The notes under the pieces were generated by a model. The model had not been told where the DNA came from and did not search any database. It saw only the letters and a list, made by a program, of their open reading frames with translations. Below, piece by piece: positions 24,493 to 64,000 of a DNA stretch of 64,000 nt. A program made the position numbers and the translations under genes. The stretch is from positions 1 to 64,000 of the forward strand of contig NZ_JAULRU010000418.1 in the NCBI RefSeq assembly GCF_030518155.1, written 5' to 3'. Origin of the DNA: Gilvimarinus gilvus (lineage in GTDB: Bacteria > Pseudomonadota > Gammaproteobacteria > Pseudomonadales > Cellvibrionaceae). Each line of letters opens with the position of its first letter. The first letter of the stretch is position 1.

Positions 24493-26237
24493 GTTTTTAC
24501 ATCCACTAAATTGTAGCTAAGCTCGTTGGCTCTTCCCGCCGGTTTACCTTGATAGTAATTGACATTAGATAATATGACGCCAGCAGATTTCATTGCCTTG
24601 CTAACGGTGTCGAGTTTGGTCTTCGCTTCGTCCAGAATTTTATTGTTTTGAGCCCAGATGCCTAAGCCGATTTGTTCGTTGAAATAACGCATATGAATAT
24701 ACAGATCCCCAATGGCGTCGGTATTAATATGTAATTTGACTAACCATGATCGCGCTGTGCTTGGGCTATCGGGCTGTGGTTCATTCTCCTGTTCTTCAAA
24801 ACTAATACGAGCGTGGTCTGTGTGCTCTCCCCAGCGCACGGGTAAATCAACGGAGAAGTGGCTACCCGGGCTTGCCGGTTCACCCGCGCGCAGGGTTGCA
24901 GTGTCCGCGCCGACTTGTTGTCCCCGAATCTTAGCCAGACTGTTCAGGGTTAGCTGATGCGTTAGTAGGATAAGCTGCGTTTGCAGTGTGGCAGAGTCAG
25001 CAGTGCTGATTCTGGCTGTGCCTCCATACAGTAGCGCTTGAGAAAGTGATGGCGTTAGTTGTCGTATATCCAACAGCTCAGGCTTCACAGAAGTTGTTGA
25101 ACCCGGTATCGGACCAGAGCTTGCGCCAAGCGATGTTGTGGTACTTGGCGGAGCTACTCCAGGCAATGGGGGGTGACCGGCAGTATGTGTACTTTGCAAA
25201 TTCCTAACGATTTGGCTGATAGCGTCTGTGTTTGGTTGTGGTTGTGGTTGTGGTTGTGGTTGTGGCCGGCCTTTGCTGGCTGTGTTCATCATCGGCCCCT
25301 GATTCTGAAGGCCGGGCATGTTCGATGCGACTAGATGAGCCAATTTTAACAGAATCGCTTTGCGATCCGACCCTAACAGTAAATTTAGGTTCGAGCTGGG
25401 CGATGCAGTTTGGGTTTTTGCCAAATTTGATTCGAAGAAGGAACCACTGTTGTTTATCAGTTGTTTGGCTTGAGCTCCGAGCGAGTCTCTGGGAGTTTGT
25501 TTGATTTGCTCCGTGGATAGCGAAAGCTTCGCCAGATCTTTTAGCGCGCTATCTATGCCCGCTGTCAATTTGTTTCTTGGCAAGAGCTTAATGAGTTGTT
25601 GCAGGGGTTGTGTCTGTTGCTCAATGCTGCTTGAGTGCAGTCGCGGAATGATTTCCCGAAGCGTCTGATTGAGGGCCGCAGGCTCTGCGGCGGTGGCACG
25701 GGTTGCGGTAGCGTTTAAAGCACTTGTATTAGGCAATGGCGCAGGGGCAACTCGCTCAGCGCCTGCGGCCTTCGCGGCCTCTAAATGAGTGGTATTGGAA
25801 CCCGGGGCGATTGGTTTACCGTTTTCACTGGCAATAACTAATTGTTGGGGGCCGGCGCGGGTTACCAAAACCGCGTCTCCCTTAGTGACAGGTAGACTGC
25901 TCAGCAGAGCTACCTGACGAGCTTGTATGGCAACGTTAATTAGACGCAGGGCGGGCTGGCTTAGCAGCGAACTTGCCAGTGCGGGCTTTACGGTTACGCT
26001 GCTTGAGGGGGCGGCCTGCGGCTTGGTTGGCAGTGGTTCGGCCGATGCTTTTGCGGTTGCCTGCGACTGCAGAAAACTCCGCTCTTGGAGAGAAAGGGCC
26101 CTAACGCTGGTCACTTGCGCGGCAACAGACTGGCCTAGCTTCAGTGATAGACCCGAGAGCAGCTTTGCAAGGTTAGGCGTGCCTTCTGGAGGTTTGACAG
26201 AGGGTTTACCGTGTAACTGGGTGAAATCTATCGGCAT
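24489..26237 (-). CDS. FliK-like hook-length control protein
   Basis: 582 residues. Residues about 1-440 are low-complexity and rich in Ala, Pro, Gln, Ser and Thr, including a five-fold PQ repeat. The C-terminal part (about 455-580: VRWGEHTDHARISF, LHINTDAIGDLYIHMRYFNE, then VNYYQGKPAGRANE) resembles the FliK C-terminal domain that contacts FlhB to switch export from hook to filament. A FlhB-C-like gene follows at once, supporting the call. Divergent from ccmA. Whether it measures hook length or serves another secretion process is not shown by the sequence. Confidence 0.8.
   Translation of the reverse strand: MPIDFTQLHGKPSVKPPEGTPNLAKLLSGLSLKLGQSVAAQVTSVRALSLQERSFLQSQATAKASAEPLPTKPQAAPSSSVTVKPALASSLLSQPALRLINVAIQARQVALLSSLPVTKGDAVLVTRAGPQQLVIASENGKPIAPGSNTTHLEAAKAAGAERVAPAPLPNTSALNATATRATAAEPAALNQTLREIIPRLHSSSIEQQTQPLQQLIKLLPRNKLTAGIDSALKDLAKLSLSTEQIKQTPRDSLGAQAKQLINNSGSFFESNLAKTQTASPSSNLNLLLGSDRKAILLKLAHLVASNMPGLQNQGPMMNTASKGRPQPQPQPQPQPNTDAISQIVRNLQSTHTAGHPPLPGVAPPSTTTSLGASSGPIPGSTTSVKPELLDIRQLTPSLSQALLYGGTARISTADSATLQTQLILLTHQLTLNSLAKIRGQQVGADTATLRAGEPASPGSHFSVDLPVRWGEHTDHARISFEEQENEPQPDSPSTARSWLVKLHINTDAIGDLYIHMRYFNEQIGLGIWAQNNKILDEAKTKLDTVSKAMKSAGVILSNVNYYQGKPAGRANELSYNLVDVKT
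25235..25264. repeat. Hexanucleotide microsatellite in the FliK-like gene
   Basis: Five exact GTTGTG units on the plus strand encode alternating Pro-Gln on the minus strand. Slippage would change the protein by two residues per unit without breaking the frame. Confidence 0.9.
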
Positions 26238-56353: not shown

Positions 56354-56958
56354 GCATACTCCTTAAATGGATATTTCCTATCTCTACGCGGTTGGCAACA
56401 ATTTGGATTCAACCGGTCTAAAAGGTGCGAAATAGTTTCGTAAAAGGAGCCGAATCAGATAGCAGTAGAATGATTGATTTATCGGTTGTATCAGCTAAAA
56501 GATATATAATTCATAGAGCTGTATAACCGAATTGCTGCGCTACCCATATTCTGGAAAACCGCTTGACGGTCAGTTTTTAACATTACCAATGAATCATCGA
56601 TCACAAAGCAATACCTTGCTTTAATCGGGTAAGCTAGCAGGCCAGCGATTGAGCGGCGTGCATTGAATGTCCGGCTACCGATGTGGCGCAAACCATCATT
56701 GATGTTAGCCGATTAAACAATTCGGTTCGCCAAGCGCTAGTGGCAAGCTTTTTTGATGGCTCGCATACCCAACAGCGAGTAAGGCGCCCGCTCGACCCTA
56801 ACCAGCCTGAATCCCACCCTGCTATATTCCGCTTATGGCAGGTCTGTCGGGGTAGGTGCTATTGGATCCGCTGCATATGCTGCTAGAACTGCTTTAACGC
56901 TTATCCATACCGGCATTGCCCGCGTATAGACTCAGGGAACTTGGCCGCCCGGCTCGAC
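56354..56958. other. Spacer between the TonB receptor and the uvrA fusion gene
   Basis: No convincing gene; open frames at 56491-56691 (minus) and 56683-56886 (plus) overlap and lack ribosome-binding sites. A perfect hairpin AAAGCAA/TTGCTTT with loop TACC lies at 56605-56622. The first 150 bp should hold the receptor promoter; I saw no clear Fur-type palindrome or riboswitch. Confidence 0.5.
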
Positions 56959-56978
56959 TCCTGTATATTTAACCAGTA
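56959..56978 (+). promoter_or_regulatory. LexA-binding SOS box upstream of the uvrA fusion gene
   Basis: TCCTGTATATTTAACCAGTA has the CTG-N10-CAG layout and matches the E. coli consensus TACTGTATATATATACAGTA at 16 of 20 positions. It ends 25 bp before the ATG, where LexA would block the promoter. Predicts induction of the gene by DNA damage. Confidence 0.75.
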
Positions 56979-57003: not shown

Positions 57004-60000
57004 ATGAGCTTTGATGCCATCAAAGTGCGCGGTGCGCGCCAGAACAACCTGAAAAACCTCGATCTCGACATTCCATTGGGGGAGATGGTGGTGGTCACCG
57101 GGGTCAGTGGTTCGGGCAAATCAACCTTAGCGTTCGATACCATCTACGCCGAAGGCCAGCGCCGCTACGTCGAGACATTCTCCGCCTACGCGCGCCAGTT
57201 CCTCGATCGTATGGACAAGCCCGCCGTAGACAGTATTGAGGGCATTCCACCGGCAATCGCCATTGAGCAGAGCAACACCGTGCGTACCTCGCGCTCTACC
57301 GTCGGCACCATGACGGAGCTAAACGACTATTTAAAGCTGCTGTTTGCAAGGCTTTCGAGCCTGTACTGTTCAGGTTGTGCGCAACCGGTGGTTACCGATA
57401 ACGCGCAAAGTATTATTGAAAATTTGTACGAAAATTATCCAGGTGATCAACGGCTGATGGTTTGCCTGCCGATTACCGTACCGGAAAAACTCAGTGACGA
57501 CGAGGTATTGCAACTGCTCAACCAGCAGGGCTATGCGCGTATTCACAGTCGCACGGGCAGCCGGGTAGAGGTGGTGCAAGACCGCCTGCGCTTAACCGGC
57601 GAAAACAAAGGGCGCCTAACCGAAGCACTGGAAGCCGCCTTGCACTATGGCAAAGGGCACCTACTGGTTTACCCGTTGGGGGAAGATCGCGAGGCGGGTA
57701 CACCGGAACGATTTTCCAGCCACCATCATTGCCCCCGTTGCGATGTTAGCTTTGCCAAGGTAACCCCCAGTCACTTTTCGTTTAATTCGCCGATAGGGGC
57801 CTGCGACACCTGTCGTGGCTTTGGTCGCGTCATCGGCGTGGACTGGGGGCTGGTGATTCCCGATGAAAACAAAAGCCTAAAAGAGGGCGCCATCAAGCCC
57901 ATCCAAACCCCGAGCTACGCAGAAGTGCAGCGCGACTTACTCAAGTTCGCCAAAAAGCGCGGCGTACCCATCACCACAGCCTGGAAAGACCTGTCTGCCA
58001 AAGATCGCGCCTGGGTCCTCGAAGGTGAGGGCAGTTGGAGCAAAGGGGTTTGGTACGGGGTTCGAGAATTCTTCGACTGGTTGGAATCAAAAGCCTACAA
58101 AATGCACATACGAGTGCTGCTATCCAAGTACCGCGCCTATACACCATGCAAAGCCTGTGATGGTGCCCGATTAAAGCCAGACTCATTGTGGTGGCGCATT
58201 GGCACCCAACAATCCGCTGAGGCTGCGCTTGCCGGCCGCGCGCATTTCAAACCAGTTGGCAGCGCATTAAGTGATACGCAGTTTGCAGATTTACCCGGGC
58301 TTAATATTGCCGATACCATGCGGTTGCCTTTAGCCAATGCACTGCAATTTTTTACCGAGCTGAATGGTGCGACACGCTCGGCGCAAGACGAAGCCACCGA
58401 ACTTTTGCTTACCGAGATTCGCTCGCGCTTAAACTATTTATGTGAGGTGGGCCTCGATTACTTAACGCTCGATCGACAATCGCGCACATTAAGCGGTGGT
58501 GAAGTGCAGCGTATTAATTTAACCACGGCACTGGGAACGTCGCTGGTTAACACATTGTTTGTATTGGACGAACCCAGTACCGGTTTGCACCCGCGCGACA
58601 TTGATCGCCTGGTCAATGTACTGCACCGCTTGCGCGATGCCGGTAACTCGCTGTTAGTGGTGGAGCACGACCCCCAGGTGATCATGGCGGCCGATCGTAT
58701 TCTCGATATCGGCCCTAAGCCCGGTCGCAACGGTGGCAACATTGAGTTCTTTGGCACCCCTAAAGCGTTATTGCAGCGCAAAAACAACACCACCGCGCGC
58801 TATTTAAACGGTACGGAACAAGTTGCTGTGGTGGCCGCCTCGGTCAATGCTAATGCCGCAGAATTAAACGAGGGTAAGACCGGGCGTGTCGCCGAGGTAG
58901 CCGCTCGCTATTTGCCCGCGTTAACCGAACATAAAAAATCCGCGAGTAATTCGGCTGCAATACACATCACAGGCGCGCGCGAGCACAATCTCAAAAATAT
59001 TGACGTCACCATTCCTTTGCACCGATTGGTGTGCCTCACCGGAGTGAGCGGCTCCGGCAAATCAACCTTAATGCGACAAATACTCTATCCGGCGCTGCTA
59101 AAACATTTTGGCGAGCAAACCGAAGCGCCGGGTGAATATTCAGCAATAACCGGGCTCGAGGCGATTGACAAAGCCGTACTGGTTGATCAAAGCCCTATCG
59201 GTAAAACCACGCGTTCCACACCCGCCACCTACGTTGGTGCATTCGAGGCAATACGCAAGTATTTTGTGGCCACGCCTCAGGCGAAGGAGCGCAACTACAA
59301 ACCGAGCATATTCAGTTTTAATGCTGGCAACGGACGCTGCCCCAGTTGCCAGGGCAACGGGTTTGAGCATGTGGAAATGCAGTTTCTGAGTGATGTTTAC
59401 CTGCGCTGCCCCGAGTGCAACGGCAAACGGTTTCGCGATGAAATACTGGAAATAAAACTGGTTAAAGATAAGCAAGCGGTATCCATTGCCGATGTGCTGG
59501 CCATGACTGTCAGTGAAGCCATCCACTTTTTTGCTGACAAGCCCGATGTGTTGCGCACCTTACAACCGCTGGCCGATGTTGGCCTTGAGTACATACAGTT
59601 GGGGCAGGCCGTGCCCACGCTGAGTGGGGGCGAAGCGCAACGCTTAAAACTGGCGGGGCACTTAGGGGCAACCCGCAGCAAAGCGCACGAGCACATACTG
59701 TTTTTGTTTGACGAGCCTACCACCGGGCTGCATTTTTCCGATGTTGCCACCTTAATGCGCGCCTTTCGTCAGCTGCAAGACGCCGGTCACTCGCTATTGG
59801 TGATTGAGCACAATCTGGACGTCGTCCGTTCCTCCGATTGGGTCATTGATATCGGCCCGGAAGGCGGCGATGCCGGCGGCGAGCTTATTGTTGCCGGCAC
59901 ACCGCAGCAATTCATTGAGCAGGGCGGCGATAGCGCGGCTACCACCAGCTTTACCGCGAAGGCGCTGGCGGAATACGTCGCAACCCTGGAACAGGGCGCC

Positions 60001-62646
60001 GCGCTCAGTGCGATTAACGCATCAACCGCCAGCAACAAGGCCCGCAAAAAATCGAACAACGTGATTAGCGTGCACCATGCCCGCGAACACAACTTAAAGA
60101 ACATTGATGTCATCATTCCGCGCGATAAGCTCACGGTAATTTCCGGTGTCAGCGGCAGTGGTAAAAGCACTCTGGCGTTCGATTTAATTTTTGGTGAAGG
60201 CCAGCGCCGCTACCTGGAATCGTTAAACGCGTACGCGCGCCAGTTTGTGCAGCCGGCCTCGCGCCCGGATGTCGACGCCATTTATGGCATTCCGCCGGCG
60301 GTCGCCATTGAGCAGCGCACCAGTCGCGGCGGGCGCAAGAGCACTGTCGCCACCTTAACGGAGATTTACCACTATCTGCGTTTGATGTTTGTAAAACTCG
60401 CCACGCAATATTGCCCCAGTTGCGATTTACCCATTGAACCCCAAACCGAGGCGGCCATTGTCGCGCGCCTGCAAAAAGATTTTCGCGGTAAAGAGGTTAC
60501 CGTGCTCTCTCCTATGGTAGTTGCGCGTAAGGGTATTTATCGCGAACTGGCGCAGTGGGCAGCAGACCGAGGCTTTACCGAGCTGCGCGTGGACGGCCAG
60601 TACCAACCAACGGCCGATTGGCCCAAACTGGATCGCTACAAAGAGCACGACATAGAATTACCGCTCGCCACTGTGAAGGTCGGGCCCAGTCAGGTGCAAG
60701 CTTTGCAGCAGGCGTTACATCAAGCGTTGGAGCTGGGCAACGGTGTGGTCATCATAGCGCCGGCAAGCAAAGCCAAAGAGCGGCTGTTCTCTACCCAGCG
60801 CGCCTGCCCGGGTTGTGGTTGCGGCTTTCCAGAGCTGGACCCGCGCTTATTTTCCTACAACTCTAAGCACGGTTGGTGCACGGGTTGTTTTGGTACTGGG
60901 TTAACACTCAAAGGCTTTGACGAAGAGCAAACCGGCGAGGAGTCGGGTTGGCAACCCGAAGACGATGGCATAGAGACTGTCTGTAAAAAATGCGACGGCC
61001 AGCGCTTGAACCCCACGGCACTGTCGGTGCGCTTTCGCGACAAAACCATTGCCGAGCTGGCAGCATTGCCTGTGGATGACGCGGAAAAATGGTTTGGCAA
61101 ACTCAAGCTCAATACCTCAGAGCAGGCCATCGCCCGCGACCTGCTCAGTGAAATGCACAACCGACTGCACTTTTTGCAGAAGGTGGGGCTCAATTACCTC
61201 ACCCTCGATCGCGCCGCTCCCACGCTCAGTGGCGGTGAGGCCCAGCGCATACGTTTGGCGGCGCAGCTTGGGTCAAGCTTGCAGGGCGTGTGTTATGTGC
61301 TGGATGAACCCACCATTGGTTTACACACGCGGGATAACCGCAAGCTTTTAGAAACCCTGCGCGAGCTGCAACAACAAGGCAATACGGTACTGGTGGTTGA
61401 GCACGACGAAGACACCATGCGCGAGGCCGACCATATTATCGACATCGGCCCGCGCGCCGGCGTTAATGGCGGTACCGTGGTGGGCGAGGGCAGCGTAGCC
61501 AAGCTTATAAAAAACAAACAGTCGCTGACCGGGCAAATGCTGGCTAAGCCCCTGCGCCACCCAATGCCGGGCTTGCGCAACAGCGAAATGCGCAACTTGT
61601 GGGACAAGGAATCGCTCGATTTACACGGCGCGACCCAAAATAACCTGAACAATATCGATGTTGCGATACCGCTGCATCAGTTAGTCGCCATTACCGGTGT
61701 CAGTGGTAGCGGTAAGAGCACGTTAGTGAGAGGTGTGCTTTACCCCAACCTAAAAACGGTCGTGAGCGGCAAACGCAAAACCAACACAAGTTGGCAGGGC
61801 GTAGAGAGTATTGAAGGGTGGCAGTCCATTGACCGCATTCTGGAAGTGGATCAAACCCCCATTGGTAAAACACCGCGCTCGTGCCCGGCGACTTACATCG
61901 GTATTTGGGATGCCATTCGTAAACTCTTTGCCGGCACCGTCGATGCCCGATTGCGTGGCTATACGCCCGCGCGTTTCTCCTTCAATGCCGGTGATGGCCG
62001 CTGCGACGCCTGCGGCGGTAACGGCATGCAAAAAATCGAAATGAATTTTTTGCCGGATGTACGGGTGCCCTGTGATGTTTGCCAAGGCTGGCGTTTTAAC
62101 GACGAAACCCTCAGCGTTAAATACAAGGGCAAGCATATCGGTGATGTGCTGGCCATGAACATCGACGAGGCCGCCGAGTTTTTTAAACCAATCTCAAAAG
62201 TGCACCACGCCCTGTGTTTATTGCAGGATGTGGGCCTGGGCTATTTAACCCTGGGCCAACAGAGCCCGACCTTAAGCGGCGGGGAGGCGCAGCGCATTAA
62301 GCTTGTGGCCGAACTCGCCAAAGCCCGCATGACGCCGGAAGATGCCAAAGGCAAACGCTTTCAGCACAATCTGTATGTGCTGGACGAACCCACTGTGGGC
62401 TTGCATATGGCGGACGTGGACAAGTTGCTGCACGTGCTGCATCGGTTGGTGGATGCCGGCAACTCGGTGCTGGTGATTGAGCACAACCTGGATGTGGTGG
62501 CCGAGGCGGACTGGATCATAGATATGGGGCCGGAAGGGGGTTCAGGTGGGGGGAGAGTTGTGGCGCAGGGCACGCCGGCGACCGTGGTTAAGCGTAAGAG
62601 GTCGTTGACTGGGCGGTTTTTGGGGGAGGTTTTTAAAGGGGGGTAA
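57004..62646 (+). CDS. uvrA: Giant tandem-fused UvrA excinuclease subunit, four ABC modules
   Basis: 1880 residues, twice the normal UvrA (about 940). Two complete UvrA units follow each other (about 1-1010 and 1018-1880) through a short polar linker. Walker A GVSGSGKST occurs four times (residues 33, 680, 1048, 1565), ABC signature LSGGExQ four times (496, 873, 1408, 1757), and each module has a DEP(S/T)xGLH-type Walker B; none is degenerate. Zinc-module cysteines persist in both units (CPSCQGNGF, CDACGGNGM and others). The UvrB-binding region is near canonical in unit 2 (RKGIYREL, LDRYKEHDIE) and diverged in unit 1. Recognises DNA lesions and loads UvrB. Chlamydiae have a similar double-length UvrA. 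Behind an SOS box; a standard uvrA probably lies elsewhere. Confidence 0.95.
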   Translation: MSFDAIKVRGARQNNLKNLDLDIPLGEMVVVTGVSGSGKSTLAFDTIYAEGQRRYVETFSAYARQFLDRMDKPAVDSIEGIPPAIAIEQSNTVRTSRSTVGTMTELNDYLKLLFARLSSLYCSGCAQPVVTDNAQSIIENLYENYPGDQRLMVCLPITVPEKLSDDEVLQLLNQQGYARIHSRTGSRVEVVQDRLRLTGENKGRLTEALEAALHYGKGHLLVYPLGEDREAGTPERFSSHHHCPRCDVSFAKVTPSHFSFNSPIGACDTCRGFGRVIGVDWGLVIPDENKSLKEGAIKPIQTPSYAEVQRDLLKFAKKRGVPITTAWKDLSAKDRAWVLEGEGSWSKGVWYGVREFFDWLESKAYKMHIRVLLSKYRAYTPCKACDGARLKPDSLWWRIGTQQSAEAALAGRAHFKPVGSALSDTQFADLPGLNIADTMRLPLANALQFFTELNGATRSAQDEATELLLTEIRSRLNYLCEVGLDYLTLDRQSRTLSGGEVQRINLTTALGTSLVNTLFVLDEPSTGLHPRDIDRLVNVLHRLRDAGNSLLVVEHDPQVIMAADRILDIGPKPGRNGGNIEFFGTPKALLQRKNNTTARYLNGTEQVAVVAASVNANAAELNEGKTGRVAEVAARYLPALTEHKKSASNSAAIHITGAREHNLKNIDVTIPLHRLVCLTGVSGSGKSTLMRQILYPALLKHFGEQTEAPGEYSAITGLEAIDKAVLVDQSPIGKTTRSTPATYVGAFEAIRKYFVATPQAKERNYKPSIFSFNAGNGRCPSCQGNGFEHVEMQFLSDVYLRCPECNGKRFRDEILEIKLVKDKQAVSIADVLAMTVSEAIHFFADKPDVLRTLQPLADVGLEYIQLGQAVPTLSGGEAQRLKLAGHLGATRSKAHEHILFLFDEPTTGLHFSDVATLMRAFRQLQDAGHSLLVIEHNLDVVRSSDWVIDIGPEGGDAGGELIVAGTPQQFIEQGGDSAATTSFTAKALAEYVATLEQGAALSAINASTASNKARKKSNNVISVHHAREHNLKNIDVIIPRDKLTVISGVSGSGKSTLAFDLIFGEGQRRYLESLNAYARQFVQPASRPDVDAIYGIPPAVAIEQRTSRGGRKSTVATLTEIYHYLRLMFVKLATQYCPSCDLPIEPQTEAAIVARLQKDFRGKEVTVLSPMVVARKGIYRELAQWAADRGFTELRVDGQYQPTADWPKLDRYKEHDIELPLATVKVGPSQVQALQQALHQALELGNGVVIIAPASKAKERLFSTQRACPGCGCGFPELDPRLFSYNSKHGWCTGCFGTGLTLKGFDEEQTGEESGWQPEDDGIETVCKKCDGQRLNPTALSVRFRDKTIAELAALPVDDAEKWFGKLKLNTSEQAIARDLLSEMHNRLHFLQKVGLNYLTLDRAAPTLSGGEAQRIRLAAQLGSSLQGVCYVLDEPTIGLHTRDNRKLLETLRELQQQGNTVLVVEHDEDTMREADHIIDIGPRAGVNGGTVVGEGSVAKLIKNKQSLTGQMLAKPLRHPMPGLRNSEMRNLWDKESLDLHGATQNNLNNIDVAIPLHQLVAITGVSGSGKSTLVRGVLYPNLKTVVSGKRKTNTSWQGVESIEGWQSIDRILEVDQTPIGKTPRSCPATYIGIWDAIRKLFAGTVDARLRGYTPARFSFNAGDGRCDACGGNGMQKIEMNFLPDVRVPCDVCQGWRFNDETLSVKYKGKHIGDVLAMNIDEAAEFFKPISKVHHALCLLQDVGLGYLTLGQQSPTLSGGEAQRIKLVAELAKARMTPEDAKGKRFQHNLYVLDEPTVGLHMADVDKLLHVLHRLVDAGNSVLVIEHNLDVVAEADWIIDMGPEGGSGGGRVVAQGTPATVVKRKRSLTGRFLGEVFKGG

Positions 62647-63297: not shown

Positions 63298-64000
63298 ATG
63301 CTTAATTTTAAGATAATTCTAGTGCTACTTTTTGGTTTGGGAGTTCTTAGCCAAAGTGCATTGAGTGGCGAGTATCATGATCAGTATAGTATCCGCTTAT
63401 TGGGTGGGTTTAACTCCCGTATGCCAAGTGAGGATCTGGCAAATTCAGGTTGTTATCAGATTGAAGTTGCTCTACCTGGAGAGAAGACCCGATTACTGAC
63501 ACCAGATGACGTTGATCGCATAAATAACACCGTTGGCAAAACTCCCCCTCAAGTGAGATTTGTTGATATAAGTGAAATTAGCACGAATGAAAAACTTTAT
63601 GAGGCTCTGGGGTTATCTATAACTGCCGCTGCAAAGTTTGGATTCGGAAAGGGTTCACTATCAACTGAAATTGAAAGAACTAGTTCGGTTTTAGATCAAA
63701 CTCTAATTTATCATCTGGGGGCAATAGCCGAGTTTCCCGTAGAGCATTTGGGTAATCGTCCAATTAAATTATCGAAAAATGGTAAATTTGTTCTAGATCT
63801 AGCAATTGAGAAGGGAAATCCAGAAGTCTTCTACGCTGCCTGTGGTACCCATGTTGTTACCAGTGTAACTCGTGGTGCTAGGGCGTCTCTTCTATACCAG
63901 TTTTTCGCATATCATAGTTCTTTGAAGGAAAAACTAAAATCTTCAGTTGATGCGTCTTTTAAAACTTACAGTGGCTCAATTGACTACCAAAAAGAGGCTC
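63298..64000 (+). CDS. Secreted protein, possibly MACPF-like pore former (partial)
   Basis: An open frame starts at the ATG at 63298, 8 nt after AGGGA, and runs off the window after 234 codons. A signal peptide is clear (MLNFKIILVLLFGLGVLSQS). The mature part contains ALGLSITAAAKFGFGKGSLS, then FYAACGTHVVTSVTRGARAS. The GTH followed by alternating beta residues and Gly recalls the signature of MACPF/CDC-type pore-forming proteins, but the resemblance is short and read by eye. DNA here is AT-richer than elsewhere in the window, suggesting horizontal acquisition. Without the 3' half the family cannot be settled. Confidence 0.6.
   Translation, partial: MLNFKIILVLLFGLGVLSQSALSGEYHDQYSIRLLGGFNSRMPSEDLANSGCYQIEVALPGEKTRLLTPDDVDRINNTVGKTPPQVRFVDISEISTNEKLYEALGLSITAAAKFGFGKGSLSTEIERTSSVLDQTLIYHLGAIAEFPVEHLGNRPIKLSKNGKFVLDLAIEKGNPEVFYAACGTHVVTSVTRGARASLLYQFFAYHSSLKEKLKSSVDASFKTYSGSIDYQKEA

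Follow-up and report, generated by a model that had tools for sequence, protein, structure and literature searches.

The 64,000-nucleotide stretch of Gilvimarinus gilvus DNA analysed in this study (contig NZ_JAULRU010000418.1, positions 1 to 64,000; hereafter the window) carries on its forward strand a double-length uvrA gene (57004..62646), recognised by its reading frame and by NCBIfam matches. The frame runs uninterrupted from an ATG start codon to its end and encodes a protein of 1880 amino acids (aa) with zero internal stops. Two NCBIfam UvrA models scored above their cut-offs (2087 against 1147 bits and 2030 against 730 bits), while Pfam matched the UvrA interaction domain twice and the UvrA DNA-binding (insertion) domain once. 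Walker A motifs could be located at aa 33, 680, 1048 and 1565, LSGGE signatures at aa 496, 873, 1408 and 1757, and Walker B motifs at aa 520, 900, 1432 and 1792. Each of the two UvrA units comprises two ATP-binding cassette (ABC) ATPase modules with all three motifs, which places the protein in the UvrA superfamily, and the twelve CxxC pairs are divided into six per unit. A preliminary description made from the sequence alone had claimed one polypeptide with two full UvrA units, no frame break over 5643 bp and four copies of each ATPase motif; this is borne out by the 1880-aa frame and by the motifs, all of which were located.

Based on motifs, alignment and AlphaFold2 models, the protein was divided into unit 1 (aa 1-989; 57004..59970), a linker (about aa 990-1012; 59971..60039) and unit 2 (aa 1013-1880; 60040..62643), all encoded on the forward strand. 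Folded separately, the units reached a mean predicted local distance difference test (pLDDT) score of 82.8 for unit 1 and 81.4 for unit 2, with about 86-94 in the domain blocks, and both models match UvrA structures over nearly their full length. The units were compared in an alignment of 88 rows of double-length proteins, the window protein included, of which 85 are distinct (L046/L050, L048/L140 and L049/L141 are the same gene twice). Across these rows the wider stretch around the linker (aa 978-1012) varies in length from 22 to 87 aa.

UvrA normally works as a homodimer of chains of about 940 aa. The search for such a normal uvrA elsewhere in the genome, suggested in the preliminary description, was successful: an ordinary uvrA was found on another contig (1489.8 bits in a TIGR00630 search), and the double UvrA is therefore a second UvrA protein. 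A single uvrB scored above the cut-off in this genome. A separate ordinary UvrA was also present in all 20 named genomes with the double form that were examined, some of which encode a further single-length UvrA-like protein.

Differences between the two units

The catalytic residues of both units are intact. Walker A lysines and Walker B glutamates were never replaced in the 88 rows of either unit, and the five gaps at these residues (four rows in unit 1, one row in unit 2) lie in rows that are truncated where the fetched stretch or the contig ends.

The clearest asymmetry of the protein is that unit 2 lacks the insertion domain, a loss missed in the preliminary description, as was the LexA-type box described below. 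The insertion domain of unit 1 (aa 280-376; 57841..58131, forward strand; PF17755 and alignment) is the only one in the protein, and at the corresponding site of unit 2 the alignment leaves a remnant of 21 aa (aa 1306-1326; 60919..60981, forward strand). In comparison with E. coli UvrA, the insertion-domain stretch measures 94-102 aa in unit 1 (median 99) and 10-38 aa in unit 2 (median 24) in all 88 rows, with 96 and 21 aa in the window protein. All zinc modules had been described as present beforehand; this stands for the Zn2 cysteines, which are kept in unit 2, but not for the insertion domain normally carried there. We define the double UvrA of beta- and gammaproteobacteria by a single frame of about 1800-2200 aa in which unit 2 alone has lost its insertion domain, and the window protein has both traits. 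The insertion domain of E. coli UvrA is reported to take part in damage recognition (PMC3025350), and the drug-resistance protein Ecm16 is reported to need its insertion domain for DNA binding (PMC10192343).

The residues described as contacting DNA in UvrA are R712, R722, R724 and R730 (PMC3025350). The equivalent of R730 is arginine in unit 2 in 88 of 88 rows, while in unit 1 it is arginine in one row and lysine in 26, and isoleucine in the window protein. At the equivalent of R722, arginine or lysine was found in 67 of the 88 rows for unit 1 and in all 88 for unit 2. R712 is kept in both units and so is R724, with three exceptions in unit 2.

A UvrB-binding-type domain is present in both units. 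In unit 1 (aa 133-238; 57400..57717, forward strand; alignment) the equivalents of R216 and E222 are kept as R204 and E210, and the RKG and KHTIE segments are lost. In unit 2 (aa 1148-1263; 60445..60792, forward strand; PF17760 and alignment) the RKG, RVDG and EHxIE segments are kept and R216/E222 are lost (A1233 and H1239), so that neither domain keeps every canonical segment. The domains have a median length of 114 aa in unit 1 and 130 aa in unit 2, with 105 and 115 aa in the window protein. Arginine at the R216 position was found in 86 of the 88 rows of unit 1 and in four of unit 2, and an acidic residue (E or D) at position 222 in 85 and 20 rows, respectively; this domain is so diverged that its alignment is a source of error for such calls. 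R216 and E222 of E. coli UvrA have been mutated as the UvrB interaction surface (PMC3025350), and their pattern here points to unit 1 as the preferred UvrB unit, without proving it. The UvrB region of unit 1 had previously been taken as diverged and that of unit 2 as near-canonical. Both are in fact far from the UvrA of the same genome, with identities of 22/99 and 32/116 against 71/116 for E. coli UvrA, and since unit 1 retains R216/E222, which unit 2 has largely lost, the assignment appears partly reversed.

In unit 2, three of the four Zn1 cysteines are present in every one of the 88 rows, the fourth in 53 of them. Each unit shows replaced Zn1 ligands in 35 of the 88 rows (at two or more positions in unit 1, at one in unit 2) with the domain kept, for example in L103 and L130, and the Zn1 zinc site therefore seems to be dispensable or rebuilt in this branch. 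Solved UvrA-UvrB complexes of M. tuberculosis were among the structure matches, 2:1 and 2:2 according to their titles; the former indicates that one-UvrB states occur with ordinary UvrA too.

The halves of the double UvrA thus differ in a fixed manner and have lost complementary parts. The fixed differences across the 88 rows support the specialisation of the two units that the preliminary description had proposed.

Distribution and history of the double-length gene

All eight members of the genus that were searched, G. gilvus included, carry the double uvrA without an internal stop, the other seven at 81-85% identity. An assembly error or two separate genes, named in the preliminary description as what would overturn the fusion, could be ruled out by these unbroken frames and by unbroken loci elsewhere. 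For G124, another member of the family, a TAA was flagged in the match listing, yet the fetched locus is an unbroken double frame. Within the genus, the G119 locus lies wholly inside that of Gilvimarinus sp. 2_MG-2023. Compared with three relatives of the same genus, the ratio of nonsynonymous to synonymous substitution rates (dN/dS) was 0.05-0.08 in both units, at a high dS of 1.3-2.1; a fourth relative gave no dS.

Outside the genus, the double uvrA was found in one of 17 genomes of the other genera of the family and in one of 13 genomes of the remaining order, two of which gave no UvrA match whatsoever at the threshold used. In a draw of 114 genomes from the class, at least 16 carry the double form among the matches listed, G. 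gilvus included. Of these, 11 are single-frame, four run off contig ends (G033, G036, G060 and G051, the last showing unit 1 only) and one is broken. In the latter, G034 (locus L030), a single-contig genome, the gene is split into two overlapping frames, for which decay or a sequencing error is possible. The draw from the phylum gave 19 full-length matches to a unit 2 probe at 265 bits or more among 398 genomes, again including G. gilvus, with the next match at 139 bits. A scan of named genomes, of which the best 80 of 590 matches were taken as loci, gave mostly beta- and gammaproteobacteria, together with one member of the Desulfuromonadales and two spirochaete metagenome-assembled genomes (MAGs). 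In this set 63 of the 80 frames are unbroken, 11 are cut by a contig end and six are broken. In the phylum of one of the spirochaete MAGs, two of 120 genomes gave a full-length unit 2 match, that MAG included. Proteins of the same build therefore form a family found in many beta- and gammaproteobacteria and rarely elsewhere, and the double uvrA is a real, widespread and conserved UvrA variant with a built-in asymmetry.

A tree of the units was constructed from 15 double proteins together with 14 UvrA1-labelled and four UvrA2-labelled references, one of which (G107, labelled UvrA2) falls with UvrA1. The unit 1 sequences group in one clade and the unit 2 sequences in a second, each with a support of 100 in the Shimodaira-Hasegawa-like approximate likelihood ratio test (SH-aLRT). 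The branching inside the two clades is largely matching, which points to one old fusion followed by long joint descent. The grouping of units 1 and 2 as sisters, set against UvrA1 and class II, reached an SH-aLRT of about 35, and approximately unbiased (AU) tests of two alternatives gave p values of 0.674 and 0.679.

In the window, the gene is flanked by a TonB-dependent receptor on the opposite strand and, on the other side, by an unassigned protein. The start of a protein at 63298-64000, truncated by the window end, matched neither Pfam nor NCBIfam at the thresholds applied. No operon or mobile-element context emerged from 321 neighbour frames at 86 loci, the largest recurring neighbour group having eight members. 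On plasmid pBRH01 of Mycetohabitans rhizoxinica (L131), the double uvrA is flanked on both sides by non-ribosomal peptide synthetase genes, a setting in which a DNA-protecting role of the protein would be worth testing.

A LexA-type box upstream of the gene

A LexA-type box, CTGTATATTTAACCAG (56961..56976, forward strand), was found 27 nt upstream of the start codon, both by pattern and by a weighted score against a consensus. Its core has one mismatch to CTGT-N8-ACAG, the same as the E. coli uvrA control. The box scored 30, compared with 29 for this control, 30-33 for lexA and recN, and 26 as the 95th percentile of the 600-nt stretches of the window; the next-best site of the window (score 29 at 25014) lies inside a long frame and is presumably due to chance. 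A predicted sigma-70-like promoter, TTGGCC-17-TATATT (56941..56969, forward strand), has its -10 element inside the box. It is the only such site between 56350 and 57100, where 1.6 would be expected by chance, and a TTGG block at its position is also present in most rows of the upstream alignment.

All eight genomes examined from the genus share the LexA-type box, as does G124, while the DNA farther upstream aligns poorly. Genome-wide, CTGTATATNNNNNCAG occurs four times, namely before lexA, before recN, before the double uvrA and at G000:C809:10067-10082. The last of these, CTGTATATACATACAG (L154), has no recognised gene directly behind it, and could be either a chance match or the sign of an unrecognised SOS gene. 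No LexA-type box was found in the 600 nt before the first motif of the ordinary uvrA in the seven genomic copies located (L138 and L139 lie outside these seven), the best scores being 19-22, with 21 in G. gilvus itself and 20 in G115 of the same genus. Beyond the genus, nine of 84 upstream regions contain a perfect CTGT-N8-ACAG; shuffled sequences would give 0.18, and none of 1172 gene-body stretches has one. Its carriers are Achromobacter (three), Burkholderia (three), Paraburkholderia, Cupriavidus and Mycetohabitans.

In this genus the double uvrA looks SOS-controlled through a putative LexA box. If this is true, the damage-induced UvrA of the genus would be the double form and not the ordinary one. 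The LexA regulon of Vibrionaceae, alpha- and betaproteobacteria is reported to include uvrA, in an account where the copies are not separated (PMC3323433).

Proposed role and comparison with known UvrA proteins

By a small measure, we favour the reading that the double UvrA acts in nucleotide excision repair as an auxiliary damage sensor induced by the SOS response, a one-chain asymmetric UvrA pair which would feed UvrB. Observed are the fused and conserved frame, the unaltered catalytic residues, the losses by which the halves complement each other and the LexA-type box; the proposed mechanism is derived from the parts that each half has kept. The single chain would fold as the equivalent of a UvrA dimer, its two units pairing with each other, and would be asymmetric by construction. 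The sole insertion domain and the R216/E222 face for UvrB would come from unit 1, and unit 2 would contribute the full set of DNA-contact arginines. Upon DNA damage, LexA bound to the box would be released and the level of the double UvrA would rise. The protein would then scan DNA, using its four ATPase sites as in UvrA, and the lesion would be handed to the single UvrB of the genome, loaded mainly via unit 1, and then to UvrC for repair. The hand-over to UvrB would take place in one fixed orientation, where a symmetric dimer would offer two that are equivalent.

A wider proposal is put forward only tentatively, as somewhat doubtful. The double UvrA may be an obligately asymmetric natural UvrA in which each pair has a single insertion domain and a single UvrB face of the R216/E222 type, so that damage would be read and UvrB loaded in a single orientation. 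It may have formed an SOS-induced second branch of excision repair since an old fusion, also in MAGs assigned to other phyla.

Several observations weigh against this role. The lysine at position 730 in 26 of the 88 unit 1 rows is a milder change than a loss of charge. The R216A/E222A mutant of E. coli UvrA is reported to give repair with a normal strand bias still (PMC3025350), which means that UvrB binding does not hinge on these two residues alone. No recognised SOS gene follows the fourth CTGTATATNNNNNCAG match, and the genome also contains one match to the backward control pattern. A box with at most one mismatch was found in 23 of 85 upstream regions, where shuffled sequences would give about nine; several of the sites with one mismatch seem to be chance matches. 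The other 62 of the 85 regions had no box at this limit, including those of Marinimicrobium (L051), Teredinibacter (L053) and all ten class-draw loci (L021-L029 and L037), and LexA control of the double uvrA is therefore not universal. The tie to the SOS response is strong in certain lineages; in the rest it is missing or takes another form.

Another explanation, which we regard as unlikely, is a UvrB-independent ABC protein that would recognise and clear DNA-bound compounds like Ecm16, its UvrB-type domains binding something else. In its favour, both of these domains have drifted strongly from the UvrA of the same genome, neither with all canonical segments, and the Mycetohabitans copy is set between non-ribosomal peptide synthetase genes. 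Unlike Ecm16, the double UvrA keeps a UvrB-type domain of substantial length in both units; the Zn1 cysteines largely retained in unit 2 and the absence of a widely recurring neighbour gene also speak against such a role. The resistance to a particular DNA-binding compound that the preliminary description had suggested found no positive support, since no neighbour recurs widely and both units keep the domain lost in Ecm16.

It is rather improbable that the protein is a spare UvrA which merely raises the dose under SOS control, with an asymmetry that is drift tolerated by the fusion. The ordinary uvrA of G. gilvus and that of G115 are boxless, their best sites scoring well below the E. coli control, which fits this explanation. 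A short insertion-domain stretch in unit 2 beside a full one in unit 1 in every row is a more regular pattern than separate lineages would reach by drift, but one early inherited loss would also produce it.

The reading as an asymmetric UvrA pair bears on how UvrA works in general. UvrA is described as a symmetric dimer which loads two UvrB molecules (PMC7616783). A lesion, however, normally lies on one strand. In a homodimer, where a mutation hits both halves, it is hard to probe the need for symmetry or the number of insertion domains and UvrB docking faces required. In an asymmetric pair fixed in one chain each half is separately mutable, and the double UvrA could serve as a test of how UvrA works as a pair.

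In the literature searched, which left subscription papers outside, no recognised account of this double-UvrA build was found. A review by Goosen and Moolenaar from 2008 reportedly sorts UvrA into classes and may mention fused forms. In comparison with class I UvrA, the double protein has two units per chain, one insertion domain instead of the two expected with one in every unit, and, with a UvrB domain in both units, an R216/E222 face in one unit only. Class II UvrA (Deinococcus UvrA2, Ecm16) resembles it as a second UvrA beside the ordinary one with an altered relation to UvrB. These proteins are single-length, keep the insertion domain (117 aa) and have lost the UvrB-binding domain, of which 10 aa are left in all three aligned, in agreement with the absence of this domain reported for Ecm16 (PMC10192343). 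An assignment of the double UvrA to class II was excluded by its UvrB-binding-type domains of 105 and 115 aa.

Chlamydiae are known to have a double-length UvrA, likewise a chain of about 1800 aa that contains two UvrA units, and we take the NCBIfam model NF001885 (PRK00635) to represent it. The first unit of this profile resembles canonical UvrA and includes the insertion domain; the ordinary UvrA of G. gilvus aligns to its positions 6-923 with 745 bits, the UvrB-domain piece at 118-264 and the insertion-domain piece at 257-373. In the protein described here the insertion domain belongs to unit 1, and the signature and Walker B parts are more canonical in unit 2; an ordinary UvrA accompanies it. 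That both belong to one family, by a single fusion shared or transferred, is very improbable: the length class is the same (1809 positions in NF001885) and one stretch (window 58936-60150, the end of unit 1 and about 37 aa of unit 2) aligns with profile positions 593-969 across the junction, but the window protein scored 1136.4 bits against a cut-off of 3054. The other unit 2 stretches, among the best ones listed, match positions 31-281 and 396-908 in the first half of the profile and not the second. This suggests separate fusions, as judged from a curated profile, and kinship with the chlamydial double UvrA looks unlikely.

Closer counterparts were found among deposited proteins. The 'uvrA2' Rmet_4549 of Cupriavidus metallidurans, equated with the match in strain CH34 by replicon and name only, is of the same family and, where mentioned in PMC2864759, is called merely a second excinuclease gene. 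Double-length 'uvrA' deposits of Burkholderiales such as WP_013428718.1 show no essential difference from the G. gilvus protein and belong to the same family by build and sequence.
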